The notes beneath the pieces are model-generated. The model saw only the letters and a program-made list of their open reading frames with translations. It was not told the origin of the DNA and ran no database searches. The translations under genes and the position numbers were made by a program. Positions 2,626-22,957 of a DNA stretch of 24,850 bases are shown piece by piece. The stretch is from a virus. Position 1 is the first letter of the stretch; each line of letters begins with the position of its first letter. The DNA is taken from the IMG/VR virus record IMGVR_UViG_3300005548_000032, positions 1 through 24,850 of that record, one strand, 5' to 3'.

Positions 2626-2649
2626 CAAGTCGCAATGGCTTGAGTATTT
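2619..2649. repeat. Perfect 11-bp inverted repeat covering the tail-gene ribosome site
   Basis: The left arm AAATACTCAAG (2619-2629) and right arm CTTGAGTATTT (2639-2649) are perfect complements around a 9-base loop. The right arm ends one base before the ATG at 2651 and contains the only weak Shine-Dalgarno candidate (GAG, 2642-2644). In an mRNA reading through from upstream, the start region would be hidden in the stem. The late-promoter-like TAAATAC overlaps the left arm, so mRNA started there would lack that arm. No U-tract follows, so it is not a standard terminator. Confidence 0.75.
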
Positions 2650-2650
2650 G

Positions 2651-4753
2651 ATGACGGCAGGTTACAGGGACTCCGTCCTTGCCCTCGGTCCCCGGGCATT
2701 CTACACGTTCGATAACGACACCGCGTTTGATCCGGTGTCCAGAGAACTGATCTCTCCTTTCGTGACCGATGATTCTGGCAACGGAAACACGGGCGAAATC
2801 CACTTGGTTGACGATCAAGGAGGCGGACAGTCCTTCGGTTACGCTGCTGGAATGATTTCACTGATCCAGCGTGAGCAGTATCCTCAAACTTCATTCTGCT
2901 TCGGCTGGCGTGGATTCAATCCGTGGGGCAACCTGGATCAGGTTCACTTCCCATACGCCGCGTATCCGAAAGCGTTCATCACTCTCCCATCTACGATTGC
3001 GAAGTTCGAGAAGAATGACGGCTCCAAGCAACCAGGGTCGTTCACCTTGCTGTTCCACCTGCAAAAAGACAAGCGTGAATCTGAAGCTGGTGGCCTGCGG
3101 ACCTACTTCCCACCTGGAGCAGATACGATCTTCCGACCGATTTTCGCGTGGGAGGGCATTCTGTACCTGCATTACATCGAGGCTGAGTTCGCCAACACCT
3201 TCCGCCACCTCTGTGTAACATTCGCACCTGGCACGGGCATCTTCGACAAGTGGGTCAGTCTGGGTGGTTCAAACAAGAATCCAGGAGGCGACTCTGCTGC
3301 AATCGACGCCAACATGCCTAATACGCAAGGCGACTACGAGTGGAACGGGCCTATCAACTATACCAAAGATGCCAAGATGATAGCCATCACTTGGAAGGCA
3401 GACAATACCGGTAAGAAGGGACAGTTCTCCGTGTTTGTCGATGGTGAGATGATGTTTTCTCACAAAGTGGAGAATGCTCTATCCTCCCAGATCTTGCACA
3501 ACATCAAGAACGCCAAATTCTACATCGGCGGATTCCCTTACACGTACACACAGAACGACATTCCATACGTCGCCAACCTGGAGACGCCGACGTCGCGTGT
3601 CAGCACGTACGGAACCTTGAATGCTCCGCTTGAATTCCCAGACAGAGCAACCACCCCTCAATACATCGATCAGTTGGCGATCTTTGATTACGCATTGAAC
3701 AAGCCACAGATCTACTACCTGTGGATGAAGACTCGTACCTACAGAGATTCTGTACTTCGCCTCGAACCAATCGTCTATCTCCCGATGGACGAACCTTCTA
3801 GCGCGGTTGACATCAAGCGCTACACGGATCCGAATACAACAGATCCTGATGTTGCATTTTGGAACTGGGACCTGTCGGGTTCAGCCCAAGCTGGATTCGA
3901 GGGACCAGCCAACATCCAACACGCAGGAGCCGTCAAGTTCTTCGGCGGTGCATTGATTGCACCTTCTTCGTCTGCTCTTTCGACTCGTGACTTCACGATC
4001 GAGACCTGGATCAAACTCGATTCAACCACGACTGATAGAGGTGTTGTGTTCGCATGGTCTGCTGTCGACTATCCGTACTACGGAGGCGCGACACTGCAGG
4101 TGAACTGGCGTCAGGATGTCCCGCTGGTTGGGGCACTGCAATTCAACATCGATGCCACGACCTACATTTGCACCAGGATCGGAACTTCAGTCACGGATGG
4201 CAACTGGCATCATGTCGTCTTGATTAGGAAGAAGAATTCGCTGGAGATGTGGGTGGATGGACAGAAGCAGGGAGCCCTCTACAACATCACGATCAACAAC
4301 TCCACGGCCAAGACCTACTCCCAGATGCATTTGGGCAACCAAGCTGATGGATTGATTCCGTTCCAGGGATACCTCTCCAACTTCGCACTCTATGCGTATG
4401 CACTGTCGGGAGCCCAGGTTAAATATCACTACTACTACAACGTGAAGTATAGGATCAGAGGCAACACCGTGGAATCGGGTTCTGCGGAACCTTCAGATGT
4501 CAGGCTCCTGAATCACACAGACGGAGAGTTGGTAGACAGAATCATCACAGATCCACTGGTGGCTGATTTCGAGTTCAATCCAACCGTTTCTACACAGTAT
4601 GATGTCTTTGCTATCGATCCAGATTTCCCGACACCTCATGCAAGAGCATTCGGGCCTCTGATTCCAACCACGTATCCAGACACGCTTCCATACAGACGGT
4701 TCCTGGACAGCGGATACTTCAATCCAGGCTCCGACGGCCAAGGTAACAACTGA
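2651..4753 (+). CDS. LamG-domain tail fibre/virion surface protein A1
   Basis: A 700-residue protein made of two consecutive concanavalin A-like modules and a C-terminal beta-sandwich. Module 1 (residues ~1-360) opens with YRDSVLALGPRAFYTFDND. Module 2 (~361-595) opens with YRDSVLRLEPIVYLPMDEP and has the LamG core signatures DFTIETWIKLDS (~447) and GNWHHVVLIRKK...WVDG (~517-540). The end (~598-700) resembles the small carboxypeptidase-regulatory/Rhs-type sandwich frequent at phage fibre tips (VRLLNHTDGELVDRI...YDVFAIDPD). The family binds glycans or forms trimeric fibre sections, so a receptor-binding or tail-surface role is inferred. ATG 2651 is preferred over an adjacent TTG at 2648; ribosome binding is weak and lies in a hairpin. 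It overlaps the next gene by one base (TGATG), and that gene is a paralogue. Confidence 0.8.
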   Translation: MTAGYRDSVLALGPRAFYTFDNDTAFDPVSRELISPFVTDDSGNGNTGEIHLVDDQGGGQSFGYAAGMISLIQREQYPQTSFCFGWRGFNPWGNLDQVHFPYAAYPKAFITLPSTIAKFEKNDGSKQPGSFTLLFHLQKDKRESEAGGLRTYFPPGADTIFRPIFAWEGILYLHYIEAEFANTFRHLCVTFAPGTGIFDKWVSLGGSNKNPGGDSAAIDANMPNTQGDYEWNGPINYTKDAKMIAITWKADNTGKKGQFSVFVDGEMMFSHKVENALSSQILHNIKNAKFYIGGFPYTYTQNDIPYVANLETPTSRVSTYGTLNAPLEFPDRATTPQYIDQLAIFDYALNKPQIYYLWMKTRTYRDSVLRLEPIVYLPMDEPSSAVDIKRYTDPNTTDPDVAFWNWDLSGSAQAGFEGPANIQHAGAVKFFGGALIAPSSSALSTRDFTIETWIKLDSTTTDRGVVFAWSAVDYPYYGGATLQVNWRQDVPLVGALQFNIDATTYICTRIGTSVTDGNWHHVVLIRKKNSLEMWVDGQKQGALYNITINNSTAKTYSQMHLGNQADGLIPFQGYLSNFALYAYALSGAQVKYHYYYNVKYRIRGNTVESGSAEPSDVRLLNHTDGELVDRIITDPLVADFEFNPTVSTQYDVFAIDPDFPTPHARAFGPLIPTTYPDTLPYRRFLDSGYFNPGSDGQGNN

Positions 4754-6612
4754 TGAGTGCATACAAGAACGCGATCATGAATCTCAAGCCGAAGTGTTTC
4801 ATCACCTTCGACGGAGATGCATTCGATCCATTCTCCGGAGTCTTGACTGGTTCACCTCCGGTGCTGATTGATGAATCAGGCCACGCCAACGTCGGAGTCA
4901 TGCAGGGAGATGTGCTTGGCTACTCGATGGGCCAGACCTCTCTGGTTGAGATTGAATTGGGTGGCGTCTATTCATGCATTTTCGGGCAAGCAGGATTCTT
5001 CAATCTTGGTGACCCGTTCCCGAAGGCCTACGTTGAAATTCCAAACAGTTCAGATTTCAATTTCAACAACTTCGGTTCGTTCACGGTTTCGATGTTCGTG
5101 GAGAAGACTGCGACTGAAGCTGTCTTCCGTGCACACCCTGAACTAGGATGGCCGCTATCTGGAAATAACAACACAGCTCTGTTCCGCCCAATCATTTCAA
5201 AGGGCCCTGCTCTGATCATGGGGTTCATTGACAACATCCCCGTCAATGGATCGAACGACCAGCGCATCAGGGTCATTGATCCGAATGGCACGCAGACTGA
5301 TGTCACGATGCCTGTGACTTATGCTCCGTTCTTGAACGATCAGAAGCACCTGGTCTATGTCTGGAACGTCATCCAGACGGCCCCGAACATCTACAAGGCA
5401 ACGTCGACTCTGTACATCAACAGCGTTCGCGCGTTCCAGAACACTTACAACTACACCTTCACATACCCAAACACTGCAACACCTGCTTCTTGGTTCATTG
5501 CCGGCGCTCCGACGACTCCAATCTCTGGTGACCCGCTCTACAACTTCTCGGATCGATGCACCGCGCCAACTCTGTTTGACCAGATCGCGATCTTTGATTA
5601 CGGTCTGACAGAATTGCAGGTCGCGTCGTTGTTCAAGAAGACGCGACCGTATGATCGCGTGGTGGCGGCTCGTGTTCCGCAAGCATACTTCCCGATGGAA
5701 GACGCAGAAATCGCGGGCAACTATACAGTCATCAATCAAGGCCTTGGCAACACCGGAAACGGAACACTCTACGGTGGTTCGTCTCTGGTCCATCGACGAG
5801 TCACGGGTCCGAAGATTCCTGCTGCCTTTGCCACCTTCTTCACTAACGGCGGCATGGGTGAACTCTGCGCCAATCCAGCGGCGGCGCAGTTCCCAATCTT
5901 CACGGCGGACTTCACGGTTGACTGTTGGATCAATTGCGGTACAGGCGACAGAGGCGTCGTATTCGCGCTCCCGCAGAATGACAACTACCCGTTCGACGGA
6001 CCAGTCCTCCAGATGAACTGGGCCAATGACCAAGCGACTCCAGGCGCATTCCAATTCAATATCAGGCAGGACCTGGGCATCAGTACACCGCCGGGATACA
6101 CATGGAATGATGGCCTCTGGCATCATGTCGCATGCATCAGGCGCGGAACGTTTTTGGAACTCTGGGTCGATGGTTTGATGCAGGCACAGTCTGGAACAGT
6201 TGCTGTGACACAGACGGCCAACACCGGATTTGCTCGCTCCATGTACATCATGGGTATGCTCCCAGAGAAGTTGCACCTGACGGGATCTATCTCCAAAGTG
6301 GCTGTTCAGTATTCGGCCCTCCAGCCATACGAGATCCAGATGCGCTACACTTATTCGATGGCGTACCGTCTCTTTGGTGGTGTGACCCTGCAGACAAATC
6401 CTGTTGCTGCGAACATCAGAGTCTATCGTCACTTCGATGGATCCTTGGTGACTACCGGAGTTTCCGATCCAGTTACGGGCAAGTTCGAAATCGATGTCCC
6501 GAATTACGACAAATACGATCTGATGTTCCTTTCTGGCTCGGATCCAACTGTGAGATACAGGGCATACGGTCCGATGGTTCCAGGCGCCTACCCTGACACG
6601 GCCCTCAACTGA
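4753..6612 (+). CDS. LamG-domain tail fibre/virion surface protein A2 (paralogue)
   Basis: A 619-residue protein collinear with its upstream neighbour. It opens YKNAIMNLKPKCFITFDGD, compared with YRDSVLALGPRAFYTFDND. The first module ends with QIAIFDYGL, compared with QLAIFDYAL. A second LamG module starts near residue 294, with core DFTVDCWINCGTGDRGVVFAL (~386) and GLWHHVACIRRG...LWVDG (~453-474). The C-terminal sandwich (~537-619) has IRVYRHFDGSLVTTGVSDP and ends RYRAYGPMVPGAYPD, matching ARAFGPLIPTTYPD in the neighbour. The second copy is shorter, mainly in module 1. Tandem gene duplication followed by divergence is the simplest explanation, and the pair may form a heteromeric fibre or alternative receptor binders. 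The start overlaps the upstream stop as TGATG. Confidence 0.8.
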   Translation: MSAYKNAIMNLKPKCFITFDGDAFDPFSGVLTGSPPVLIDESGHANVGVMQGDVLGYSMGQTSLVEIELGGVYSCIFGQAGFFNLGDPFPKAYVEIPNSSDFNFNNFGSFTVSMFVEKTATEAVFRAHPELGWPLSGNNNTALFRPIISKGPALIMGFIDNIPVNGSNDQRIRVIDPNGTQTDVTMPVTYAPFLNDQKHLVYVWNVIQTAPNIYKATSTLYINSVRAFQNTYNYTFTYPNTATPASWFIAGAPTTPISGDPLYNFSDRCTAPTLFDQIAIFDYGLTELQVASLFKKTRPYDRVVAARVPQAYFPMEDAEIAGNYTVINQGLGNTGNGTLYGGSSLVHRRVTGPKIPAAFATFFTNGGMGELCANPAAAQFPIFTADFTVDCWINCGTGDRGVVFALPQNDNYPFDGPVLQMNWANDQATPGAFQFNIRQDLGISTPPGYTWNDGLWHHVACIRRGTFLELWVDGLMQAQSGTVAVTQTANTGFARSMYIMGMLPEKLHLTGSISKVAVQYSALQPYEIQMRYTYSMAYRLFGGVTLQTNPVAANIRVYRHFDGSLVTTGVSDPVTGKFEIDVPNYDKYDLMFLSGSDPTVRYRAYGPMVPGAYPDTALN

Positions 6613-6615
6613 CTC

Positions 6616-6622
6616 TAAATAC
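6616..6622 (+). promoter_or_regulatory. Putative T4-like late promoter (TAAATAC)
   Basis: TAAATAC lies in the 35-base gap before the gene starting at 6648. By T4 spacing the transcript would start near 6627, leaving about 21 bases of leader with GAGAAG at 6637-6642 as ribosome site. Unlike the other sites, no inverted repeat reaching the start codon was found here. Confidence 0.45.
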
Positions 6623-6647
6623 AACCTGATCTAACTGAGAAGAAATC

Positions 6648-7838
6648 ATGGCCACACCTATCGTATACGATTCTGGCGACTCTGGCGCCCCACAGCTCAC
6701 GATTCCAACAGGCTCCCAGGTCATCGCCACCTACCAGCAGGTGCTCAATGTCATCAAGACCTGTCTTGTTGGCACAGGTACAGCATACGGCTCGAAAACG
6801 GCTGCCGGTTGGACCATGGCGTATGACTCTTCAACCAGCGGCACCAACCCACGAATGGCGCTGCGTCAGGGATCAGGTTCTCAGTTCTACATTCGAATTG
6901 ATGCCGGCGGCCTGTCTGGTGCTCTTGGACAGCCATACGGCACAGCTCAGCTGAACGTCGTGTCAGCTGGTACGATTTCTATCGGACGACGCTTCTTGCG
7001 CGTGCGTGGTTATGAAACGATGTCAAACGTCGACACCGGTACCAACCTTTTCCCAACCTTGGGTCAGGCCCCGGAGTCATCTTCCGTTTCATTTTATTGG
7101 GCGTGGGCATGTGGAGCTAACTCGATTGCTTCTCCAGCTTCAAGCATCACGATTCCGTGGACGATCATCGCGACAGACAGCTTCTTCTACATCCGTTTCT
7201 TCTCGAATTTCGGATGCGGCGCCACGGACACATCTATCACAACATACTTCTTCGGAGACTTCATCACCGGACTGTCGTCTGATCCGTACAAGTGCATCAT
7301 TTACGCTAACTCTGACGTATCTACAACAACAGCGACCGCTGGTACGGCTACGCTCCCGAATGCCAATACGGTGAACGCTACGACGCTTGCTCATTATCAC
7401 CCATTCAATGGAGCTGGCGCTGCTGCCACACCAGGCACCAACCCTGGAAACATGTTGGGTTCCTACAACAATCTGTGGATTGCGCGTCCGTACATCGGTG
7501 TTGGTTCTCCTGTCAACGTTGGATTGCACTCAGATTACTACAAGTGTTCTGACGAATTCGGGAACGGCAATTTGGATTACCCGGAGAAGGCAACAGGCTC
7601 ACTCTTTGTCTCGAAATGCTACATTCATGAACCGACGTCGGGTTACTTGGTCCGTGGAACTCTCCCTGGTCTATGGATCCCAAATCACACGCGGCCATTG
7701 TCTGACATGGTGACCTTCGCTGGAACAGGAGCGTTCAGCGGACAGAACCTGATTTCACTCAGAAACGCGCGTTATGCGACGGATCTGAACTCGTATAACG
7801 TCATCGTCCAACTTGGTGATTGGGCCGCAGGACCGTAA
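6648..7838 (+). CDS. Phage virion protein, 'CLV-GYGSK-AGW' family, copy B1
   Basis: A 396-residue protein of a family common in tailed phages and prophages and generally annotated as virion structural protein. Hallmarks seen are an N terminus TPIVYDSGDSGAPQL, the block CLVGTGTAYGSKTAAGW (~residues 39-55), ALRQGSGSQFYIRID (~72-86), RGYETMSNVDTGTNLFP (~119-135), a central YFFGD followed by CIIYANSD, and a near-C-terminal RGTLPGLWIPNH. The ribosome site GAGAAG (6637-6642) and ATG 6648 fix the start. The exact position in the virion is not known to me; its setting between LamG fibre genes suggests a tail-associated structural component. It overlaps its own paralogue by one base (TAATG). Confidence 0.75.
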   Translation: MATPIVYDSGDSGAPQLTIPTGSQVIATYQQVLNVIKTCLVGTGTAYGSKTAAGWTMAYDSSTSGTNPRMALRQGSGSQFYIRIDAGGLSGALGQPYGTAQLNVVSAGTISIGRRFLRVRGYETMSNVDTGTNLFPTLGQAPESSSVSFYWAWACGANSIASPASSITIPWTIIATDSFFYIRFFSNFGCGATDTSITTYFFGDFITGLSSDPYKCIIYANSDVSTTTATAGTATLPNANTVNATTLAHYHPFNGAGAAATPGTNPGNMLGSYNNLWIARPYIGVGSPVNVGLHSDYYKCSDEFGNGNLDYPEKATGSLFVSKCYIHEPTSGYLVRGTLPGLWIPNHTRPLSDMVTFAGTGAFSGQNLISLRNARYATDLNSYNVIVQLGDWAAGP

Positions 7839-8986
7839 TGTCAACACCTATCGCCTACTCTTCTCTTGACCCAGGCGCCCCGCAAGTAATCGGAAACAAT
7901 CCACTCAGCGTTCTCAACATGTTGATCTGCTGTTTGGTGACCGGATACATCGGGAAGCCTGGTGCTGGCTGGTCTATCTATTCGTTCGACCCTGTCAACT
8001 GCACCCTGGTCTTGCAACAGGGGCCAGGCGGCACAACTTCTACTTCCCAGAAGTACCTGATCATCAGTCAGCCGAAGGTGGTTACATCCACAGCGGCTTG
8101 GACGACAGGCGTCTTCGCATTCGATGTGCGGGGCGCCGAGAACATGAGTGGCTCCACACCAGTCAATGTATTCCCGTCCACGAATAACAATTCGTATTGG
8201 TGCTTCATGGGCGGGCGCACTTCTTCAGTCGGTGTCGATCCAAGCGTTGTCTTGAATTACAATTCGAATATCAAATGGGGCCTGGTAGCAGACGACCGTG
8301 GACTCTACGTCAAGTTTGAACCTCTCCTGTTGATGCCAGGTGGCGCCTACTTGGGTGGCAAGGCAATCTACTTCTTTGGGGATCTGGCTAACCAGATTCA
8401 GAATGATTCGTCCTGCATCATCTATTCGAATTGGGATGTTACTGCAACTTCGGCAACAGCAACATACGGAAAGTTTGCCTTCAACGACACGACACAGCTT
8501 GCTGGTGTCTCTAACACCACAGGATTTTACGCCGATCCGTTCATCTCCATGAACAATTTCGGCGGTGTCAATGCTGGACTCTGGGCATCCAGGCAGATTT
8601 CTCAGAACTTCAACCCAATCAACCTGGGTACAGAATCGACTGACGGATTGTTCCTACAGACAGCAACGATCAATACACTGGGTGTTGACGCATTCAACAA
8701 GACGGTGACCCTTTCGAATCTGTTCTTGTACGAACAAAATGGCGCTATCCGTGGCACCTTCCCGGGCCTCTATGTCCCATCCACCAACCTGTTCAATTAC
8801 CCAGCTGTGGCAGCCGATATCATCATCAGTGTCAACAATATCCCGATGCAGTTCTGGCACTACACCACCGCAGGTCTCTCTGCTACTGTTCCTAACACAG
8901 AGGTCAATTCCCTGAGTACCTTCGGAACAGGCGGACGTGGTGATGATCTGAGAGTATTCATTCGACTCGACTCCTGGGGTAGATAA
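7838..8986 (+). CDS. Phage virion protein, 'CLV-GY-K-AGW' family, copy B2
   Basis: A 382-residue paralogue of the preceding gene. Shared landmarks in the same order are TPIAYSSLDPGAPQV at the N terminus, CCLVTGYIGKPGAGW, LVLQQGPGG...KYLIIS, VRGAENMSGSTPVNVFPS, YFFGDLANQ with CIIYSNWDV, and RGTFPGLYVPS near the C terminus. ATG 7838 overlaps the upstream stop (TAATG); a longer in-frame frame from 7820 begins inside the neighbour and is rejected. It has diverged further from the usual family pattern than copy B1 (for example GKPGAGW in place of GSKTAAGW), as expected for a duplicate free to vary. Probable virion surface component; copy-specific function unknown. Confidence 0.72.
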   Translation: MSTPIAYSSLDPGAPQVIGNNPLSVLNMLICCLVTGYIGKPGAGWSIYSFDPVNCTLVLQQGPGGTTSTSQKYLIISQPKVVTSTAAWTTGVFAFDVRGAENMSGSTPVNVFPSTNNNSYWCFMGGRTSSVGVDPSVVLNYNSNIKWGLVADDRGLYVKFEPLLLMPGGAYLGGKAIYFFGDLANQIQNDSSCIIYSNWDVTATSATATYGKFAFNDTTQLAGVSNTTGFYADPFISMNNFGGVNAGLWASRQISQNFNPINLGTESTDGLFLQTATINTLGVDAFNKTVTLSNLFLYEQNGAIRGTFPGLYVPSTNLFNYPAVAADIIISVNNIPMQFWHYTTAGLSATVPNTEVNSLSTFGTGGRGDDLRVFIRLDSWGR

Positions 8987-11970
8987 TGTCCTACACCTGG
9001 GCACTCCCTACAGGCTGCCAAATCTCGACTGCGCAGAAGATGTTTGGAAACTCTTCTCTGCAGCTAGCCAACGTTAACGTTTCAGCTCTCGCTGTCAATC
9101 CCAACACGGGATATGACATGATGTGTGACAGGTTCACCATCGAGTTCTGGTTGTACATGACGACCTTTCCGGTGTCTAACAACCTGCTCATGACCTTTGG
9201 TGGGCCTGAAACCAACTTCAACGGCGGCACGCTGAATAACTCAATCGCCCTCGGCGCCCGTACAACTGCTGTATTCACCTTGAGGCAGAATCTTACTTCC
9301 GGTTCCGCCCAGGTTGATAGTACTGTGGTTCCAACAGCTGGAACATGGAATCATATCGCTATCGTGGCGAACGATGGTGCATTGTCCATTTGGGTTGGAG
9401 GAGTGTGGGGAGGAACCATCGCCACGGCATACACCACTGGCATGATCGTTCCAACAGCAATTTACTTGGCAGGTAGTACTACAGGCACAACCAATTACGT
9501 CGATAGCCTCAGGATCACCAAGAACATCGCTCGATACACAGATACGGCGAATGGATTCACCCCGCCGGCTGCTGCTTTTACCTTGGTCGGCGATCCGTAC
9601 GCATCGAATGTTGTGATCCTTGCCAACATGGAGGCGCCAAACGGCACGACTTCATACGGCGACGATTCCCCGACATGGACCGAACCTGGAGCTACTGGAA
9701 CAGTCTCTACCGAAACGAGGCAGAAAACAAACTCTGCAGGTCTTCCAACTGGCACAATAATCACCAATCCTTCATTGTTGACTGAGTCCGCTACTGGATT
9801 GTCTCGTCATCCGATCTACGTGGCCAAGTCTCTTCCAGCGTACGCCGCTCCGGCTGGATTGCCGTATCCGTGGACAGGCACTGTCACCATCAAAGCAGAC
9901 ATGCTTTCGAGAAAAGTGCTTCCGGTTGCTGTTCCCGTTCAGAGTCTTCTGACCATGAACTTCGCCGAAGACATCTTGGTGAACAACAGTATCCCATTCG
10001 ACAAGTCGCGACTCGGATTCTCCACCACACAGACACCTGACGCTTCATACAACGCATTCGTGCAAGGCGTCGTGCTCAAGGATGGATCGCCTGTTGTGGG
10101 AGCCAGGGTCTTCCTGGAAGCGCCAGATACGGTCCAGGTCAGAACGCCACCTGTCATCACGAAGGCAGACGGTTCGTTTGTGTTCCATGGACTGAATCCG
10201 CTTGTCCGTTACAGTGCTCGTTGCTTCCCACCAGGTTCAATTGATGCCGACGCACTGATCTGGTCTCAGATCAAAACGATTCCGTACGCCATCGGGGTCA
10301 CAGGTGAGTTCACGCAGAACCTGTCCACGGGAACAATTGATTCGACTGTTATCTTCTCTGGTGGCTTTGCAGGCAACACACCTACAACTCCATTCACAGT
10401 ATCTGTGGTTTCTGGATCTATCCCATCAGGAACTACTCTGGCACAATCCGGACGCCAATTGCAGCTTCTTGGCACGATCCCCTCCGCCGACCCCTTCTTC
10501 AGCAATGTCAAAATGTTGTTCCAATTCAACGAATCGAACGGAACATCATCTCCTGTTGAAGTCAAAGGTCATTCTTACACCAAGACGGGGTCGCCTGTAC
10601 TTTCGAATGTAGCGCCAGCATATGGCACGACTTCGTTGTACCTGGATGGTAGCTCGTACTTGGAGATGGCTTCTAGTTCTGACTGGACATTGGGAACTTC
10701 GGATTTCACATTTGAGGGGCACTTCAATTTCAAATCAGGCGGAACGGGTGCCCGATTTATCTTCGGTGCAACAGGCGTGGGCCTGTACTACAACTCCAAT
10801 CAGATCCTCCTGTGGGCGTCTGGTAACGTTTTGGCGACAGGTACTACTATCACTGAAGACACCGATTACCACATTGCCCTCGTGCGTGACCACACACAAA
10901 CGAACAACTGGATTCTGTATATCAATGGTGTCAATACGATAACTGGTGCTTCAGCGGTTTCATTGTCTGGAACAGACTTCCGTTTGTTCGGAAATTCTGC
11001 GATTGGTGTTCCATTCTACGGGTATGCAAAGGGTGTGCGTCTAACCAAGGCTGTCCGATACACAGGAACGTTTACTCCGCCAACAGCGGATCTCCCAGTA
11101 GTGAACGTGTTGGACTACAAGTTCACGCTCAAGGTGTCAGGTGTTTCCGCGTATACCACACCTGCCTTGGTTGATTTTGAGATCAAGAACCCAACTATCC
11201 CAGGAAAGACTCTTGGAGTAGCCCGAGCACAATCAGGCGAAGTATTGAACTGGTGGAAGAACCTGGCCATCTTCCTTGACTTCGAGAATACAGGAGCGGC
11301 AGGCCTTTCCACCTCTGGTTCAACCTACGTGGTGGACAAGGCATTCAAGATGGGCTGGAAGAACTCTAGTACCACGAAGATCATCACGAACACGAAATCC
11401 AAGTTTGGATCCCAGTGTGGATACTGGTCTGATGCTTCTGCTGGTTCTTGGTTCTCCAAGACGTATGAAATGACTCCCCTCAACCAGCAGTTGGTCACGT
11501 TGGCCAACCAGCCATTCTCGTTTGAGATGTGGGTCTTCCTGACAGCCTATCCGACGTCAGGAAACTTCTACTTCTTGCTCAACAAGGACATCAATACAGG
11601 AACGAGAGACTGGGCCGCGGCAATCAATTCAACTGGCAACCTGTCCCACAACCTGTGGCTGAATAACACCACGAACGTTACTGTCACCAGCTCGGGTACA
11701 GTTACATTGAACCAGTGGGTTCATCTGTACGGAGCACGCAACGGAAACAACCTCATGGTTGCCATCGACGGAACGATGACGACAGCCAACATCGGAAATG
11801 TCTACAACTCAGACGCCAATACGCAAATCACCTTGGGCGCTTCACAGGCTGATACATCTCAGACGCGCTTCCAGGGATACATGGACCAGGTACTTTTCTT
11901 TGGTGGATGGGCTCGCTACACTGCTAACTTCACTCCCGACTCAACCGTCTTTAACCCATTGATCTACTGA
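8986..11970 (+). CDS. 994-residue multi-domain LamG/Ig-like tail fibre protein C1
   Basis: The largest gene here. Visible modules are: LamG1 (~1-200; RFTIEFWLYMTTFP, GTWNHIAIVAND...WVGG, DSLRITKNIARYT); a fragment that looks like only the first strands of another LamG (~203-245, DPYASNVVILANMEAPNGT); a carboxypeptidase-regulatory-like sandwich (~354-420, VQGVVLKDGSPVVGARVFLE...ADGSFVFHGL); an Ig-like/He_PIG start (~450-502, SVVSGSIPSGTTLAQSG...LLGTIPSADP); LamG2 (~503-705, SNVKMLFQFNESNGTSS...VRLTKAVRYTGTFTPP); the likely end of the same Ig-like fold (~708-735, YKFTLKVSG); and LamG3 (~753-994, FSFEMWVFLTAYPTSGN). LamG3 is closely related to the LamG of the next gene. The protein is inferred to be a long tail fibre or surface adhesin. 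ATG overlaps the upstream TAA (TAATG). Confidence 0.8.
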   Translation: MSYTWALPTGCQISTAQKMFGNSSLQLANVNVSALAVNPNTGYDMMCDRFTIEFWLYMTTFPVSNNLLMTFGGPETNFNGGTLNNSIALGARTTAVFTLRQNLTSGSAQVDSTVVPTAGTWNHIAIVANDGALSIWVGGVWGGTIATAYTTGMIVPTAIYLAGSTTGTTNYVDSLRITKNIARYTDTANGFTPPAAAFTLVGDPYASNVVILANMEAPNGTTSYGDDSPTWTEPGATGTVSTETRQKTNSAGLPTGTIITNPSLLTESATGLSRHPIYVAKSLPAYAAPAGLPYPWTGTVTIKADMLSRKVLPVAVPVQSLLTMNFAEDILVNNSIPFDKSRLGFSTTQTPDASYNAFVQGVVLKDGSPVVGARVFLEAPDTVQVRTPPVITKADGSFVFHGLNPLVRYSARCFPPGSIDADALIWSQIKTIPYAIGVTGEFTQNLSTGTIDSTVIFSGGFAGNTPTTPFTVSVVSGSIPSGTTLAQSGRQLQLLGTIPSADPFFSNVKMLFQFNESNGTSSPVEVKGHSYTKTGSPVLSNVAPAYGTTSLYLDGSSYLEMASSSDWTLGTSDFTFEGHFNFKSGGTGARFIFGATGVGLYYNSNQILLWASGNVLATGTTITEDTDYHIALVRDHTQTNNWILYINGVNTITGASAVSLSGTDFRLFGNSAIGVPFYGYAKGVRLTKAVRYTGTFTPPTADLPVVNVLDYKFTLKVSGVSAYTTPALVDFEIKNPTIPGKTLGVARAQSGEVLNWWKNLAIFLDFENTGAAGLSTSGSTYVVDKAFKMGWKNSSTTKIITNTKSKFGSQCGYWSDASAGSWFSKTYEMTPLNQQLVTLANQPFSFEMWVFLTAYPTSGNFYFLLNKDINTGTRDWAAAINSTGNLSHNLWLNNTTNVTVTSSGTVTLNQWVHLYGARNGNNLMVAIDGTMTTANIGNVYNSDANTQITLGASQADTSQTRFQGYMDQVLFFGGWARYTANFTPDSTVFNPLIY

Positions 11971-11971
11971 T

Positions 11972-13489
11972 ATGCCTACAGCTACACTTGAACCAGTACC
12001 AATGAAGGATGGCTTCAACGTCACCTGGCCGTCAGGCGGAGTTTCGCTGTGGCTGGATTTTGATCTGATCGGGAACAATCCTGCATTCCCGGGAGTCACC
12101 CAGACACCAGGTTGGGTATTTGATCGTTCATGTTTGTACTCATGGGGCGTGAATAACGGCTTCACGATCTCCAATGTGCAAGCGCTTCCGGGCAAGAAGT
12201 ACTCGGGCATGAATACGGCCACAGCCGGAACCAACCAGAATGGTTGCTTCGTGAATGGCTCCACTATTCGAAATAATTCGATCCAGTATCCTGGAACTAC
12301 TCAGAGTTGGCAGGTGATGTCCTACGGCACAAACTTCGCCAACCGACCGTTCTCAATGGAATTCTGGGCATACATCACAGCGTATCCTACGTCTGGCAAC
12401 ACATACTACCTGGTGGCCCAATCTCTTGAAACCGGAACACCAGGTTGGCGCTGCTACATCACCTCGACTGGCGCCTTTGTTTTCAGCTGCCATGGCTCTG
12501 ATCTGGTACTCTACACAGCCAGCGGTTCTACAGTTCCCTTGAATCAGTGGAACCACTTTGCTATCGAGAGGAAGGATGACACGATCTACACATTCGTGAA
12601 TGGCGTAGCTTCCAGCAGTGTTGTACTCCCAGCAGCCATCGCTCTAGCAGACGGGACATCCAATCCGTTGGTCAGCATCATGACGTCTATTGGTGACGTT
12701 TCCACGACGAGAACAACAGGCTGGATCGACCAGGTCTTGATTACCCAGGGATTTGCCAGGTTCCCAGTGGCAGGATTCACTCCTGCAGTGCCGTATCCGC
12801 TGATCAGTACTCCATTCGGTGGAAACGTCACACCTATCGGATCACTGGCAACTCAGGCTCCGGTATCAGGTTTGATTTGGACTGTAGCACAAGGGCCTGC
12901 TGCAAGTAACTGGAATCTCCTAACAAACAGCATTGGGTCGTATGCTATCTGGACAACCAGTATCAATAACATGGCAACGGTCTATGCTGGAAGCGGTGTT
13001 CAGCTTGAAAACATCATGCACTACTTCGAAATCGTGGTCACTGGCACGGCCACAGGCAGCGGTGTCGCTATTGGAATCGTGGATCCTTCAAATGCAGCAT
13101 TCACCAGCTGGTTGGGTCAAGATACACATGGATTGGCATTCTACTACCCAACCCCTCAATTTTACGCCAATAGCAGCGTAATCTCAGGAACTTATCCAGC
13201 CAGCTGGGGTACAACTGGCGACAATCTCGGTGTGGCGATGAAGTGGGATTCTGTGAACAGCCAGCTGAGGGTCTGGCTCCGTCGTAATGGAGGGGCCTGG
13301 GGTGGTGGCGGTGATCCAGCCGCCAATACAACGCCTTCCGCCATTATCAACGGATCGTTCTTGGCTTCGGGAGTGTTCCAAGTGGCGGGCCACATCCAAT
13401 ATGCAAACGAGACGTCGCCATCTTACACCATGCGTGTTCTCCAATCAGCGGCATACACAATTCCGTCTGGCTTCTCCTACTGGGTCTAA
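11972..13489 (+). CDS. LamG plus SPRY-like tail surface protein C2
   Basis: A 505-residue protein. The N-terminal half is a LamG module (core FSMEFWAYITAYPTSGNTYY at ~124, then VPLNQWNHFAIERKDD...FVNG, WIDQVLITQGFARF), clearly paralogous to the last LamG of the upstream protein (FSFEMWVFLTAYPTSGNFYF, LNQWVHLYGARNG, YMDQVLFFGGWARY). The C-terminal part (~349-505) reads like a SPRY/B30.2-type sandwich: HYFEIVVTG...GVAIGIVDPS, HGLAFYYP, GDNLGVAMKWDSVNSQLRVW and RNGGAWGGGGDP. SPRY-like modules occur in phage tail proteins as binding domains. It starts one base after the upstream TGA (TGATATG). It is the last gene before a 52-base gap carrying possible regulatory hairpins. A receptor- or glycan-binding tail role is inferred. 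Confidence 0.78.
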   Translation: MPTATLEPVPMKDGFNVTWPSGGVSLWLDFDLIGNNPAFPGVTQTPGWVFDRSCLYSWGVNNGFTISNVQALPGKKYSGMNTATAGTNQNGCFVNGSTIRNNSIQYPGTTQSWQVMSYGTNFANRPFSMEFWAYITAYPTSGNTYYLVAQSLETGTPGWRCYITSTGAFVFSCHGSDLVLYTASGSTVPLNQWNHFAIERKDDTIYTFVNGVASSSVVLPAAIALADGTSNPLVSIMTSIGDVSTTRTTGWIDQVLITQGFARFPVAGFTPAVPYPLISTPFGGNVTPIGSLATQAPVSGLIWTVAQGPAASNWNLLTNSIGSYAIWTTSINNMATVYAGSGVQLENIMHYFEIVVTGTATGSGVAIGIVDPSNAAFTSWLGQDTHGLAFYYPTPQFYANSSVISGTYPASWGTTGDNLGVAMKWDSVNSQLRVWLRRNGGAWGGGGDPAANTTPSAIINGSFLASGVFQVAGHIQYANETSPSYTMRVLQSAAYTIPSGFSYWV

Positions 13490-13534: not shown

Positions 13535-13541
13535 TTTGACC

Positions 13542-15365
13542 ATGACTCAAGTCGATCCAAACTACGAAGGGCTCCCGCCTGGGTATGACGTCGTATTCGA
13601 TTTTTCGATTCCGACGGCAGGATACCCACAGCCGGGCTACGACGTCGTCTTCGACTTCTCTGCGCACCCGACGTTCACCACTGCACGATCTGTCACTGGT
13701 GAGTTAGTTGTAACTGATCTGACGACAACTGCGTCGTCTCTTGGAACGCTGGTCTGTCGGACAGGCGAGGTAGGAAGTTTTGATCTGTTGCTCGACTGGA
13801 AGGTCATCTTCCATGCTGGCGAATTGGCGCAAGTCACAACGATCTCCATCGCCCAGTTGCTGGGCAACATCACCATGTGGCACGGAGAGTTGGGCCACGC
13901 CACAATCTCCGCTGCATACGCTGTTGTTCCTTCTGCTCGTGATGGTCAGAAGACTGCATGTACCCTGACTCCAGGACAAGCTGCTAACCTAGGCATCATT
14001 CCTGTTCCGACAGGTGAGCGTGGCGCAGTCGGAACAATCAACGCAGCATTCAACCTGCCGTCGGCTGGAACCACAGGTGAGAAGGCATCAGGCGAGATTG
14101 AAATCCATCCGCTGATCCTGTTCGTCACCAATGTGATGCCTACGGGCGAAAAGATCATCAATGCGCTTGCCTCGTTTGTCCAGCCAGTTCCGTCAGGACG
14201 CACGGGCGAAAAGACTGCATGTGATCTGACAGTCACCGGACCAACCACCGTCAGGATGAAGACTGGCGAAGTAGCGCTGGTTGAACTGAATCAGGGATTC
14301 ACGATCATTCATCCGCTGGGTATGCGCACCGGCGAATGCATCATCAGCACGACCCTGAACACGAGGCCGGCGGCCAACCCGGTTGTTACTTTCGTGACTG
14401 GCGAGAAGGCGATTGGCGATCTGACTGTGCATCCAACGGCGCACATGACCGCCATTGCGAAATCAGGCGAAGAATTCTGGGCAGCCATGAAGGGTCAGAC
14501 CCGTTGGATCGATCTCGGATACGATCGCAACGGACCAGACGCATTCTACACCTGGTGGGATGATGTCTACAACCAGCAGGGCAACTGGGTCATCATCGAC
14601 ACATACGAGAATGACTACCCAGGCATCTATCACAACGTCGGATGCAATCAGTACGCCACGGCACAGCTGAGCACGCGCGCTCGATTCTACGATATCGAGT
14701 TCCGATCTGGCGAGCGCATGCACCACGAGCAGTCTGCCTGGATCTTGAATTGGGCAGCTGGCAATCCAGCGTTCACACCAATCAAGGCCCTGATGGGTCA
14801 GGCGATGCAATGCCAGTTGGAAGCCGACATCAAGGTTCCGCTGTGCTTCGGTAACATCATCCCAGACCCAGACTTCGTGTTCATTGAATTGTCATCCCCG
14901 TATGGCGATCCATGCGAATCGTGGTGGATGAAGACGGGCGAGAGTGCGTTCGTGGCAAGGAACGGATTCTTGGTCGTTCCATCTCTGGGTCATCCAGTTT
15001 GCCCAACAGGCGAAGTGGCGAAGGCTGAACTGACACCTGATCCGCCTTGGATCGTGCGCATGTGGACTGGCGAACGTGTCAAGTGTGAGTTGTGGAACGA
15101 CCCATCCATGCAGCCGATCTTCCGTACGGGTGAAAGAGCCACTGCCAGAATGCAGGATCTGGCTGCGAATGCCCAGGACGGCGCAAGGGCAATCGTCACG
15201 GCAATGCACACGAATTACGACGTCTTCTTCGACGAGCATGGCTGCTTGGAGAACCGATACGTTCCACAGACTCCAGACGGTGATCCAGATTACGCTAACG
15301 CGCCTCCAGCTACACCAAGAGAGCTTGATCCGTTCCAACACTTCATCTTGAGCCACTGCGAGTAA
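13542..15365 (+). CDS. TGE-repeat virion protein (~21-residue tandem repeats)
   Basis: A 607-residue protein, family not recognised. The N terminus carries a duplicated segment, GYDVVFDFS, twice within residues ~10-43; a related YDVFFDEHG appears near residue 561. From residue 52 a degenerate unit starting [T/S/A/H/D]-G-[E/Q]-[K/R/V/L] repeats at 52, 74, 92, 114, 134, 157, 178, 201, 221, 241, 263, 286 and 308. A non-repeat insert of ~150 residues rich in Trp/Tyr/Asp holds one isolated copy at 389. Copies then resume at 465, 489, 509 and 529. Within a unit the consensus is roughly TGEkA.a.L followed by a hydrophobic strand and a Pro turn, which would suit a beta-solenoid or stacked-sandwich fibre. 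No enzyme motif is visible. The ATG at 13542 is preferred to an in-frame TTG at 13536. Its position between fibre and baseplate genes suggests a tail structural part. Confidence 0.8.
   Translation: MTQVDPNYEGLPPGYDVVFDFSIPTAGYPQPGYDVVFDFSAHPTFTTARSVTGELVVTDLTTTASSLGTLVCRTGEVGSFDLLLDWKVIFHAGELAQVTTISIAQLLGNITMWHGELGHATISAAYAVVPSARDGQKTACTLTPGQAANLGIIPVPTGERGAVGTINAAFNLPSAGTTGEKASGEIEIHPLILFVTNVMPTGEKIINALASFVQPVPSGRTGEKTACDLTVTGPTTVRMKTGEVALVELNQGFTIIHPLGMRTGECIISTTLNTRPAANPVVTFVTGEKAIGDLTVHPTAHMTAIAKSGEEFWAAMKGQTRWIDLGYDRNGPDAFYTWWDDVYNQQGNWVIIDTYENDYPGIYHNVGCNQYATAQLSTRARFYDIEFRSGERMHHEQSAWILNWAAGNPAFTPIKALMGQAMQCQLEADIKVPLCFGNIIPDPDFVFIELSSPYGDPCESWWMKTGESAFVARNGFLVVPSLGHPVCPTGEVAKAELTPDPPWIVRMWTGERVKCELWNDPSMQPIFRTGERATARMQDLAANAQDGARAIVTAMHTNYDVFFDEHGCLENRYVPQTPDGDPDYANAPPATPRELDPFQHFILSHCE
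13695..14480 (+). repeat. Protein-level tandem repeat array 1 (13 TGE units)
   Basis: Thirteen units start at codons for T/S/A/H/D-G-E/Q at nucleotides 13695, 13761, 13815, 13881, 13941, 14010, 14073, 14142, 14202, 14262, 14328, 14397 and 14463. Spacing is 18-23 codons (mean about 21). DNA identity between units is low apart from the ACxGGCGA core, so the array is old or under selection for structure rather than a recent expansion. Confidence 0.85.
14934..15190 (+). repeat. Protein-level tandem repeat array 2 (4 TGE units)
   Basis: TGE units resume at 14934, 15006, 15066 and 15126, spaced 24, 20 and 20 codons. A degenerate DGARA unit follows near 15180. The same pattern as array 1 (TGE[SVR], then alternating small and hydrophobic residues, then a Pro- or Trp-containing turn). 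Confidence 0.8.
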
Positions 15366-15368
15366 TTC

Positions 15369-16703
15369 ATGGCAACATGTCTTCAAACCATTGCAGATGT
15401 GATGGCAGGTCCCGGCATCGATTCGCTGACCGTCATCAATCCAAACACCAACACGCCAATCGTGGTCACACCTTCGGCGAATCAGCTGCTGTTGGCGCGT
15501 ATGCAGGTTCAACAGACAGTTACATTCACGGTGACCTTGTCGTCATCTATCCCTGGTTCATTCAACGTTTCTCTCACGATCTATCAGGTCGTTGGAAGCA
15601 CTGTCAGTTCATACGCGTCAATCAACCTGACAACGGCAAGCACCACGTTCCAGAAGGACTTCCAATCAGGCACGTACATCTTCTGCTTCCACGGAAATAA
15701 CACAGCGTCGTACACAGGTAACATCATCGGATCGTTCATCAGTGTCCCGTCTTCCGCTATTCTGTTCCCGGTGTTCAAGGTTGGCGAGAAGGTGAAAGCA
15801 GATCTCACGATTCCTTCGCCCCCAAGAGTCTGCAGCCAGGTGATGTTCTACGAAGTCACAGCTGGAGAAGTTCCGCCTGGCGTCTATTTGGATGAATTGG
15901 GAACTCTGCGAGGACAGCTCCCGAACCTTGACTGTATGCCACCAGATCAATTTGGGTACACCTACTCGCCTTCGTTCAACTGGTTCTATGAGCGATCAGG
16001 TATCTCGTATCCGTTGGGCCGTCAGTGGAGATTCAAGGTCAAGTTGTCTCTGGCTGCGAATCCTGAGGTGTTCATCGAAGATTGGTTCTGCATCAGGGTC
16101 TACAACAACTGGGACTTTGACCGAGACAACTTCATTGCCCAGGCGCCTTTCGACCATGAGACCGAAGTAGCTGAAGAGATTCCGCCGCCAGTCTTGGAGC
16201 CACTTTGCGAGGACTGCCCCGAGCCTGAAGCCAAGAAGGATCCGGTGGCGCTACAGCAAATCTGTGTACCTTGTGACTCTCCTCCAGAGACGTCAATGGT
16301 GACTCTGATTGAGATCCCTGAGCCGTTGCGTGCATTGCCGCCATCTCAATTCACGCAATGGTACGCCGTGAATAACGAGACAGATTTCAGCAAGAGCTGC
16401 CCGGAGATCCAGAAGTTCATCAACGACCTGAAAGGCTCCACGATCTTCAACAAATTGCTGGAACAGAATTCGTTGGCACCATCCACAGAGCTAACCGAGC
16501 AAGAGTTGTTCATTGCCACCACGTACAAGAACTTCCTGCAGATTGCTTCTACTCGTCTCACCAACGGCAGGAATCCGACAGACATCGACACACAGTTGTT
16601 CCAGTGGCAGTTCCAGGAGAACCAAGCCAATCCGCTGTTCAGTGATGTCTACTCAGGTGAAACCATTCCGCCATTCGAACTAGAGTTCTCGCGCCATGAT
16701 TGA
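15369..16703 (+). CDS. Virion protein with TGE-type unit, Ig-like segment and CxxC motifs
   Basis: A 444-residue protein, family not recognised as a whole. Residues ~1-125 are beta-rich and Ser/Thr-rich (PNTNTPIVVTP, VTFTVTLSSSIPGSFNVSL), like a fibre sandwich. Residue ~138 starts a VGEKVKADL unit like those of the upstream repeat protein. TAGEVPPGVYLDELGTLRGQ (~163-183) is the signature of an Ig-like/He_PIG fold. A Trp/Tyr-rich part (SFNWFYERSG...GRQWRFKVKL) and a Pro/Glu-rich linker follow with two knuckles, C280-x-x-C283 (LCEDCPEPE) and C299-x-x-C302 (ICVPCDSPPE). The last ~120 residues are helical. It starts three bases after the upstream stop and overlaps the next gene by eight bases. 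Probably a connector between the fibre-like proteins and the baseplate; this is inferred from position. Confidence 0.75.
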   Translation: MATCLQTIADVMAGPGIDSLTVINPNTNTPIVVTPSANQLLLARMQVQQTVTFTVTLSSSIPGSFNVSLTIYQVVGSTVSSYASINLTTASTTFQKDFQSGTYIFCFHGNNTASYTGNIIGSFISVPSSAILFPVFKVGEKVKADLTIPSPPRVCSQVMFYEVTAGEVPPGVYLDELGTLRGQLPNLDCMPPDQFGYTYSPSFNWFYERSGISYPLGRQWRFKVKLSLAANPEVFIEDWFCIRVYNNWDFDRDNFIAQAPFDHETEVAEEIPPPVLEPLCEDCPEPEAKKDPVALQQICVPCDSPPETSMVTLIEIPEPLRALPPSQFTQWYAVNNETDFSKSCPEIQKFINDLKGSTIFNKLLEQNSLAPSTELTEQELFIATTYKNFLQIASTRLTNGRNPTDIDTQLFQWQFQENQANPLFSDVYSGETIPPFELEFSRHD

Positions 16704-16888: not shown

Positions 16889-16907
16889 AGGACCAGGAGA
16901 ACTGTAT
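16885..16907. repeat. 6-bp inverted repeat around the PAAR gene ribosome site
   Basis: ATACAG (16885-16890) and CTGTAT (16902-16907) are perfect complements around an 11-base loop that holds the Shine-Dalgarno AGGAGA. The right arm takes in the first two bases of the ATG at 16906. The left arm overlaps the late-promoter-like TAAATAC. The stem is short and could arise by chance, but the layout repeats that seen at 2619-2649. Confidence 0.4.
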
Positions 16908-17205
16908 GCCATCCGTAGCACGTCTAGCCGATCTCTGTACCGGGCATGGTTGTTATCCGCCGCGCCCAAACATCCAGGGATCGCCTACTGTATTCGTGAA
17001 TGGAAGGCCGGTGCACCGATTGACTGATGCTTGGGCGATCCATTGCTGCGGGCCATCGTGTCATGGAGCAGTCCTCGCGAAAGGCTCGACTACAGTATTC
17101 GTGAATGGCCTCCCATGCGGCAGGATCGGGGACCTGGTAGGTGTTCCAGGTGAATGTGGTTCAGTTGTCATGACGGGATCAACAAACGTTTCAGCAGGTG
17201 GGTAA
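16906..17205 (+). CDS. PAAR-repeat spike-tip protein (T4 gp5.4-like)
   Basis: A 99-residue protein with the PAAR layout: GHGCYPPRPNIQGSPTVFVNGRPVHRLTD, a central IHCCGPSCHG, the second half-repeat GSTTVFVNGLPCGRIGD, and an ending CGSVVMTGSTNVSAGG. PAAR proteins cap the central membrane-piercing spike of phages and type VI secretion systems and hold one structural zinc or iron. Candidate ligands are H14, H37 or H46, and C84. Seven cysteines (11, 16, 47, 48, 52, 71, 84) are more than usual for the family. AGGAGA at 16895-16900 gives a strong ribosome site. The gene opens the baseplate operon, and its stop overlaps the gp25 start (TAATG). Confidence 0.9.
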   Translation: MPSVARLADLCTGHGCYPPRPNIQGSPTVFVNGRPVHRLTDAWAIHCCGPSCHGAVLAKGSTTVFVNGLPCGRIGDLVGVPGECGSVVMTGSTNVSAGG

Positions 17206-17612
17206 TGTCGGTCAAGCTTCTATCAACTGAGATTGTCGCGTATTCGGATCTGGACTTGTCGTTCACCCCGAATCCGTTGACTGGAGATCTGACTCCGCTG
17301 ACCAACGTGGCGGCGGTCCGGCGCTCTGTTGTCAATCTCGTGAACATGGATGCATTTGATATCCCATTCGACTTCGGAGCGGGCTCCAGCATCAAGAAGA
17401 TGTTGTTTGAGCCTGCTACAGAGCTCACTGCTGCCGCACTTAATACGCGAATCGAATTCCTCATCGCCAAATACGAACCAAGAACTGTCTTGCAAAGTGT
17501 CGACACAACAGTAGGCACAGGCGGCATCGGTTTCAATGTCACAGTCCGAATCCTGGTTAGGGCCACGGCTCAGATTGAGACATTCACATTCTACGTATCG
17601 AGAGTACGCTGA
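17205..17612 (+). CDS. 25: Baseplate wedge protein gp25-like (GPW/gp25 family)
   Basis: 135 residues, against 132 for T4 gp25. It shows the family landmarks AYSDLDLSFTPNPLTGDL near the N terminus, VAAVRRSVVNLV, then FDIPFDFGAGSSIKKMLFEP, a helix ELTAAALNTRIEFLIAKYEPR, and strand-rich IGFNVTVRILV at the end. The EPR triplet at ~92-94 is the conserved motif of gp25 and TssE and contributes to the wedge core that nucleates the sheath. ATG 17205 (overlapping the PAAR stop as TAATG) gives the expected N terminus, so the longer in-frame start at 17154 is rejected. The stop overlaps the gp6 start (TGATG). Confidence 0.9.
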   Translation: MSVKLLSTEIVAYSDLDLSFTPNPLTGDLTPLTNVAAVRRSVVNLVNMDAFDIPFDFGAGSSIKKMLFEPATELTAAALNTRIEFLIAKYEPRTVLQSVDTTVGTGGIGFNVTVRILVRATAQIETFTFYVSRVR

Positions 17613-19453
17613 TGTCATCAGTAAACAACTTCCCAGTCGCGGGCCTGAACTTCGACGAGATCCGAGCTAACTTCATCAAGTACATGAAGGGGAATCCTGC
17701 TTACAAGGATTTCAACTTCAATGGTGCAGGTATCTCGCAGCTGGTCAACCTGTTGGCGTACAACACGCACATGCAGGGATTCTACACCAAGATGCTGATG
17801 GATGAGTCATTCACCGACTCCGCGCACACGCGCCCAGCATTGCTCTCGCACGCAAAGCGCACAGGATACACGCCAGGATCGAAGAAGTGTTCACAGAATC
17901 AGATCACACTATCTGTATCTGTTCCAGTTGCCAACGATCCAACCTCCCAGAACATTGTAGTCCCTGCTGGATCTTCTCTCAAGTCCACGAACTCAAAGGC
18001 TGACCAGCGCGTATTCAACCTGATTGAAGACGCTACTCTGGACCAGAAGTCATCTGGATTTGATGCCCAGAACAATCCAGTCTACATCTACACAGGCGCG
18101 CCAATCACTGTATACGAAGGTGCGTACACAACCTACAAGTTCCAGGTCAACAACAGCACCGATAATCAGAAATTCATCATCCCAGACCTGAACATTGACA
18201 CCGACACGCTCAAGGTTTCGGTGACACTCGGTGGATTGACTGACGTCTACAAGACTGTGGCTGACATCTTCGAAGTAGACAAGGATTCGTTCGTTTACTA
18301 CCTGACGACCAACTATGACCAGAACTACCAAATCTTCTTCGGACAGAACATCTTCGGCGTCCAGCCTCAGAACACGTCTGTCATCACCTGCAAGTACGTC
18401 AGCACCAACGGAGCGTCTGGCAACGGTGCGCAGAACTTCAAGTTCAACCAGCTCCCTCAGGGAACCACTCTGCCGCTTGGCGCGATCGTCACGGCTGTCG
18501 CCCTTCCGGACAACACCTACAATCCCGCTGTCCCGACCGCGTCATACGGCGGCATGGACGTCGAGGACACCGAGTCGCTGAGGTTCACGATTCCACACGC
18601 TTGGAAGCGTCAGAACCGAATCGTGACAGAATCAGACTACCAGTCGATCATTCTCGAGAAGTTCAGGAACATCGATAGCTTGAGCGTTTGGGGCGGCGAG
18701 AAGAATTCTGTTCGTCAGTATGGAAAAGTCTTCCTCTCCATCAAGCCAAAGTTCTCTGACGCCCTGACGGCAACCGCGAAGCAGCAGATCTCTGATGCGA
18801 TCTCGGGCAAGTTCGGCGTCGTCGGAACGGATCTGCTCTTCATGGATCCAGAGTTCATCGATGTCGACGTCAGCTTGGTTGGTGAGGTGAATACGCTTTT
18901 GACCAACGACACACTCTCGATCATCCAGGGACGCCTCTTGGCGGATCTGGATACATACAACACTGATGTCATGAACCACTTCGGAACTATCCTGTCCGAC
19001 GTCAACATGCTCAACTACCTGATGGATGATGAGCCATCGATTGTCACGCTGTTCTCTGTCAAGAACATGCACAAGAACTTCACTGTCTTGTATCAGTCTA
19101 CTGGCACGAATGTCATCACCTTCTCGAATCCGTTGGTTCCAGGAACGATCTACACGACGTCTCCGATCCTGTATGGTCTCAATGGCCCGTATCAGATGAA
19201 AGACGACGGATTGGGAGCGCTCTGGCTGAGGGATGCCAATGGGGCATCGCCAACCTTGCAGGCGATTGGCTCAGTGGATTATGATCAGGGCATCATCCGA
19301 TTTGTGCTCCCGCTGTTCTCCACGATCCAAAACTACAACGGAAACTCGGGTGTCATCACAATCTATGCGAAGCCGCTGAATCCTGACATCAAGACTTCGC
19401 TCAACAACATCGTCCGAATCGCAAGCACAACCTGCACCTTGACCGCACAATGA
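17612..19453 (+). CDS. 6: Baseplate wedge protein gp6-like (gpJ-related)
   Basis: 613 residues, against 660 for T4 gp6. The N terminus is diagnostic: NFDEIRANFIKYMKGNP, then DFNFNGAGISQLVNLLAYNT and MLMDESFTDSAHTRPAL, then AKRTGYTPGS. A later block (~330-378) WKRQNRIVTESDYQSIILEKF, followed by GGEKN...GKVFLSIKP, is the gpJ-like core shared by P2 and Mu baseplate proteins. In T4, gp6 dimers form the continuous ring of the wedges and drive the sheath-triggering change. The start overlaps the gp25 stop by one base, and the stop overlaps the next start by four bases (ATGA). Complete, with no frameshift seen. Confidence 0.92.
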   Translation: MSSVNNFPVAGLNFDEIRANFIKYMKGNPAYKDFNFNGAGISQLVNLLAYNTHMQGFYTKMLMDESFTDSAHTRPALLSHAKRTGYTPGSKKCSQNQITLSVSVPVANDPTSQNIVVPAGSSLKSTNSKADQRVFNLIEDATLDQKSSGFDAQNNPVYIYTGAPITVYEGAYTTYKFQVNNSTDNQKFIIPDLNIDTDTLKVSVTLGGLTDVYKTVADIFEVDKDSFVYYLTTNYDQNYQIFFGQNIFGVQPQNTSVITCKYVSTNGASGNGAQNFKFNQLPQGTTLPLGAIVTAVALPDNTYNPAVPTASYGGMDVEDTESLRFTIPHAWKRQNRIVTESDYQSIILEKFRNIDSLSVWGGEKNSVRQYGKVFLSIKPKFSDALTATAKQQISDAISGKFGVVGTDLLFMDPEFIDVDVSLVGEVNTLLTNDTLSIIQGRLLADLDTYNTDVMNHFGTILSDVNMLNYLMDDEPSIVTLFSVKNMHKNFTVLYQSTGTNVITFSNPLVPGTIYTTSPILYGLNGPYQMKDDGLGALWLRDANGASPTLQAIGSVDYDQGIIRFVLPLFSTIQNYNGNSGVITIYAKPLNPDIKTSLNNIVRIASTTCTLTAQ

Positions 19454-22950: not shown

Positions 22951-22957
22951 GAATAGA

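Follow-up and report, generated by a model that had tools for sequence, protein, structure and literature searches.

We describe a tandem-repeat protein encoded in a 24,850-base viral record (IMGVR_UViG_3300005548_000032, positions 1 to 24,850; hereafter the window). Judged by sequence comparison, it belongs to an unnamed family common to large T4-like phages, a repeat family that is apparently new, but within a known kind of structure, the phage tail-tip fibres. The protein probably is a virion structural component at the baseplate periphery of a T4-like myovirus, where it would form a rod-like arm or fibre anchored by its C terminus together with a partner protein.

A diverged repeat of about 21 residues

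The open reading frame spans positions 13536..15365 on the plus strand (609 amino acids from the listed TTG; an ATG at 13542 appears the likelier start). It contains 19 copies of the motif [TSAHDQY]G[EQ], compared with a mean of 1.8 and a maximum of 9 in 20,000 composition-shuffled sequences, and TGE itself occurs 13 times (shuffled mean 0.28, maximum 4). Fifteen of the 18 successive motif spacings measure 17-25 residues, where random placement yields a mean of 2.7 and a maximum of 10. A score matrix built from other phages only, with the window left out, detects 18 units in the window protein (13 + 5) on comparison with shuffled sequences. Even with the central xGE columns masked, the flanking columns by themselves exceed shuffled sequences by 8 SD at the motif sites. 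Motif counts, spacings and the window-free matrix together confirm the ~21-residue TGE tandem repeat proposed in an earlier sequence-only reading of this DNA.

The same reading had described DNA identity between units as low and the pattern as kept by selection, and both statements hold. Identity between units averages 37% at the DNA level (30% once the motif is excluded, compared with a background of 26.5%), and the T and E of the motif are encoded by freely varying codons from unit to unit, ruling out recent duplication of the DNA. We also rejected recent unit duplication at the protein level, because the best unit pair in the window protein reaches only 58% amino-acid identity. The repeat is old, diverged and maintained at the protein level.

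We derived a unit consensus from 18 proteins, which together contribute about 490 units, numbering positions relative to Gly 0. On the N-terminal side, hydrophobic residues are found at -7, -5 and -3, followed by Y at -2 (46%) and S, D, T or E at -1. The central G (93%) is followed by E, A, S or Q at +1, and the C-terminal side carries hydrophobic residues at +3 and +5, L at +7 (50%), T at +9 (34%) and P at +11 (20%), with the P falling in the longer units of the array alignment. TGE is thus a local variant of the more general Y-[STDE]-G-[EASQ]. Unit length ranges from 17 to 24 residues, with spacings mostly of 20 and 22-23. Short and long spacings alternate in 188 of 324 cases, compared with 161 ± 8.5 in shuffles and a maximum of 187 in 2,000 shuffles. 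Disjoint array fragments from the window protein align best at offsets of one parity, and this registration together with the spacing alternation points to a 42-residue double unit.

MORN repeats are about 23 residues long, start with Y-x-G and contribute two strands per unit, and they thus resemble the TGE unit in length, start and strand number. The TGE unit, however, lacks the second G-x-G of MORN, as only one Gly is conserved across the about 490 units. Neither the window protein (at E <=1) nor any of 28 array fragments (at E <=0.1) matches the MORN profile (PF02493), and we rejected membership on both grounds. The window protein has no match in Pfam, PHROGs, NCBIfam or PDB sequences, in line with the earlier statement that no named repeat family can be assigned.

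Architecture and distribution of the family

The window protein starts with a second type of repeat (13578..13661, plus strand; residues 15-42), in which two copies of PGYDVVFDFS (13578-13607 and 13632-13661) follow one another with an 18-residue period and differ in their DNA at third codon positions only. Similar PG-x-x-h-x-F-x-F copies are numerous in the N termini of the relatives L004 and L008, and the N terminus of the Variovorax phage V45v66 protein contains many W..PG..h.h.F copies. Array 1 (13674..14501, plus strand; residues 55-311), defined by motif statistics and the score matrix, comprises 13 units, with G at residues 55, 77, 95, 117, 137, 160, 181, 204, 224, 244, 266, 289 and 311, as previously counted. 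It is followed by an inter-array segment (14502..14903, plus strand) and by array 2 (14904..15215, plus strand; residues 468-549), where the score matrix places G at residues 468, 492, 512, 532 and 549. The second array had been read as four copies and in fact has five, the last one being a DGA that was overlooked. The ~150-residue insert between the arrays (about residues 323-456) is likewise present as described, but holds one weak GE site (SGE, 14706, residue 391), and homologs share the LCFGNIIPDPD at its 3' end, the family form being LC-x-G-N-[FIL]-IPD.

Alignment of homologs defines a conserved C-terminal region formed by array 2 and a terminal block (14823..15362, plus strand). These ~180 residues are conserved across the family, with the last 60 usually among the best conserved. 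Array 2 units are spaced by about 20, 20, 17-20 and 17 residues in most members, and the terminal block F-x-E-x-GCL-x-N ... E ... H ... C consists of residues that are invariant or nearly so. From N to C terminus, family proteins are built from a variable N-terminal region, array 1, the LC-x-G-N-[FIL]-IPD segment, array 2 and the terminal block. Complete members contain about 17 to 48 units (about 18 in the window protein), of which array 1 contributes about 9 to 26 in one run. The L019 and L020 proteins are 35% identical and differ by about eight detected units, and the L038, L041 and L043 proteins reach about 1,570-1,650 amino acids. Laminin_G_3 domains are inserted between array units in both proteins tested, L038 (1.6e-12) and L041 (3.6e-11), and large non-repeat inserts are also found in the X1 and L011 proteins. 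In the latter two (X1, L005 positions 4457-7651; the metagenomic L011, positions 6048-8573) a similar insert (GNAT...WTQ) lies within or beside the array and by eye resembles the C-terminal part of the window ORF at 11972-13489. A Pfam search of the window TGE protein itself found no Laminin_G_3 (PF13385), and we rejected its assignment to LamG or concanavalin-like fibres for this reason.

A tblastn search of 50,697 phage records returned 20 records with homologs, which are called 'hypothetical' wherever annotated: 16 from Stenotrophomonas phages (Menderavirus where checked), two from Acidovorax phage ACP17, and one each from Variovorax phage V45v66 and Xanthomonas phage X1. As a single-sequence query, the window protein gave no match among viral contigs; alignment queries, used directly or via the partner gene, recovered about a dozen more metagenomic relatives on contigs of up to 305 kb (L045). 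The nearest relative is L031, whose partner gene is 69% identical to that of the window and whose TGE gene is represented by its final 30 residues only. Searches of bacterial and archaeal genomes with the C-terminal block and the partner as queries returned no relatives. The closest known proteins are the hypothetical proteins of the Menderavirus phages Marzo (QYW02754.1), Mendera (QFR56764.1) and Ps15 (UMO77182.1), of ACP17 (ASD50352.1) and of X1 (WEM34251.1). They share with the window protein homologous arrays, the C-terminal region and the same downstream neighbour gene, but are only 25-33% identical to it and differ in unit number, in their inserts and in their N-terminal regions. No function has been described for any of them, and the available parts of the Ps15 and X1 genome papers do not discuss the protein. 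The window protein thus combines the unit arrays, the conserved C-terminal block and the downstream partner gene that characterize the family.

Fold of the array

We calculated AlphaFold2 models for the full protein from 7 sequences and for residues 67-237 from 28 array fragments. Both are low-confidence models (pLDDT 31.6 and 50.1, respectively), and both are all-beta, with strands on either side of most xGE sites in array 1. The monomer prediction suggested by the sequence-only reading thus yields two strands per unit in either case, though only at these pLDDT values. That reading had also proposed a repetitive beta architecture such as a solenoid fibre; the predicted pair of strands per unit is consistent with the architecture, but the solenoid part fares worse, given the low confidence of the models and the lack of parallel, in-register covariation outlined below.

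It is possible, though less likely than not, that the array is a parallel beta-solenoid with one unit per rung and G-E at the corner, forming a fibre like the beta-helical tailspikes. Regular strands in each unit of both models would be in line with such a fold. In a Foldseek comparison of the array model with the PDB, most of the matches are beta-helices (SufB, pectate lyases, LpxD, bactofilin, P22 tailspike), which makes the array model solenoid-like, but these matches are insignificant, all having probability <=0.10 and E >1. Searching the full model against BFVD placed the independently predicted ACP17 ortholog first (E 9.5e-10, with a global TM of only 0.10). For the array model this ortholog was top in probability (0.57) and TM (0.65) among the matches listed, at a non-significant E of 1.9. 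AlphaFold2 is known to over-predict solenoids for repeats, as documented for perfect repeats (PMC11795689), and our models are for this reason weak evidence for a solenoid. Beta-helical tailspikes and pectate-lyase-like phage proteins likewise are elongated, repetitive beta structures at the tail tip. The window protein shows no sequence match to them, and we rejected membership in pectate-lyase-type families as no profile matched.

We analyzed covariation between units by permutation within each protein, with the column and turn tests permuted also within spacing class. After stratification, neighbouring units show no same-column covariation (Z 1.0, no higher than in offset columns), which counts against parallel stacking, as does the variable unit length of 17-24 residues. 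Antiparallel column pairs, in contrast, covary across the loop of the 20-residue spacing (Z 4.05, where the other registers give <=2.2), and a weaker signal spans the turn (Z 2.85). An antiparallel beta-meander has, in our estimate, close to an even chance of being correct. Here, xGE would form a tight hairpin turn and the T-x-P loop the next turn, giving a 42-residue structural repeat in which the double unit alternates 20- and 22-residue spacings, with either oligomerisation or a second sheet covering the hydrophobic face. The alternation of short and long spacings supports this arrangement, as do the antiparallel signals. A type II' turn accommodates Gly followed by a polar residue, as found at the centre of the unit. 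These signals are however weak. The units lack independence, the tests covered several registers, part of the effect could stem from unit subtypes, and no model gives a hairpin fold with confidence. We thus lean towards antiparallel hairpins over a solenoid, and consider the question unsettled.

Gene neighbourhood and a putative baseplate arm

Upstream of the TGE gene, the window contains a fibre-like block of six plus-strand genes (2648..13489), four with Laminin_G_3 and two with 'tail assembly protein'-like profile matches. The Laminin_G_3 genes at 2648-4753 and 4753-6612 are apparently paralogous (both phrog_31125), and the tail-assembly-like genes at 6648-7838 and 7820-8986 form a paralogous pair (both phrog_9600). 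The TGE gene is followed on the same strand by the partner gene (15369..16703; 444 amino acids, phrog_29085), a PAAR-repeat spike-tip gene (16906..17205; phrog_281, E 1.7e-30), genes for gp25-like (17154..17612; phrog_261, phrog_43) and gp6-like (17612..19453; phrog_219, Gp6-like_1st) baseplate wedge proteins, and two further wedge genes, and thus sits within a baseplate/tail-tip block. The PAAR spike-tip gene lies near the fibre-like genes of the window. The true start of the gp25-like gene probably is internal to the listed ORF.

The TGE gene lies directly upstream of the partner in every locus with both genes. This includes the most distant loci (L038, L040, L041, L043 and L045), where phmmer missed the gene but the C-terminal block and the units in the translation just before the partner reveal it. 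Most loci have the order TGE-partner-PAAR-gp25-gp6, and many have LamG-containing genes like those of the window upstream of the TGE gene. Menderavirus is an exception, its TGE-partner pair being separated from the wedge genes, and in the L045 locus neither gp25 nor gp6 was detected. Matches to the T4-type late promoter TATAAATA are no more frequent than expected by chance.

The partner protein itself carries TGE-type units. One is found near residue 140 in essentially all homologs (residue 139 in the window, about position 15783, score 18.1), and most homologs have a further unit at the extreme C terminus, such as YTGESLSVELTV in Marzo, which scores 18.0 compared with a shuffled 95% level of 9.0. 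The corresponding site in the window partner (residue 430) scores 5.7, not above shuffles at the same 95% level of 9.0. A stretch ELPPGI-x-L...G-x-L-x-G-x-LPNLDC in the partner presumably resembles the He_PIG Ig-like motif; it has no Pfam match.

The baseplate synteny of the homologs supports a role in the virion. Several features together fit an arm or fibre attached to the baseplate: where the gene lies, how long the protein is, its repeat rod, the lectin inserts, the conserved C terminus and a partner that shares single units. We infer that the protein is part of the virion, where its many ~21-residue, two-stranded beta units would build an elongated rod. The conserved C-terminal region would act as the anchor, most likely jointly with the partner, docking through the beta units that the two proteins share, and the variable N-terminal side, where arrays differ in length, a second repeat occurs and some relatives carry a LamG insert, may be the outward adhesive or spacing part. 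The two candidate folds discussed above are sub-questions of this explanation rather than alternatives to it. T4 gp12 and gp34-gp37 are baseplate-attached fibres with repetitive beta rods and thus resemble the TGE protein in likely place and architecture, but the TGE protein matches no Pfam or PHROG tail-fibre family and is conserved at its C terminus instead of its N terminus. Most tail fibres are anchored by the N terminus, and the reverse orientation proposed here counts against a baseplate arm. A position beside fibre genes would also suit an assembly factor, and the available parts of the Ps15 and X1 genome papers yielded no virion proteomics for the family. It is nevertheless very improbable that the protein acts only in assembly, as a chaperone or scaffold for the fibre proteins encoded beside it, because members reach about 1650 amino acids and contain long repeat arrays and lectin inserts; we know of no tail-fibre chaperone with these features.

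The TGE gene and its fixed downstream partner thus mark out a structural family that lacks annotation and is widely spread among large T4-like phages. The hosts of these phages are Stenotrophomonas, Xanthomonas, Acidovorax, Variovorax and uncultured organisms, and most of their tail-tip proteins are called 'hypothetical'. Should the protein prove to be a rod, the family would give these phages a likely adhesin arm and provide a natural, length-variable beta rod able to carry lectin modules. A more far-reaching proposal, which we regard as doubtful, is that the repeat represents a new beta fold, an extendable rod to which each unit adds two strands, into which lectins are inserted and which is fixed to the baseplate by strand exchange with the single units of the partner.

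Elsewhere in the window, a partial ORF at positions 1-399 contains FVFGSNLAGYHGAGAAKAA, a motif that we take to be widespread in phage and bacterial proteins. On the minus strand, antisense open frames of 475 and 388 amino acids (5197-6624 and 22940-24106, respectively) lie opposite structural genes and probably are shadow frames.
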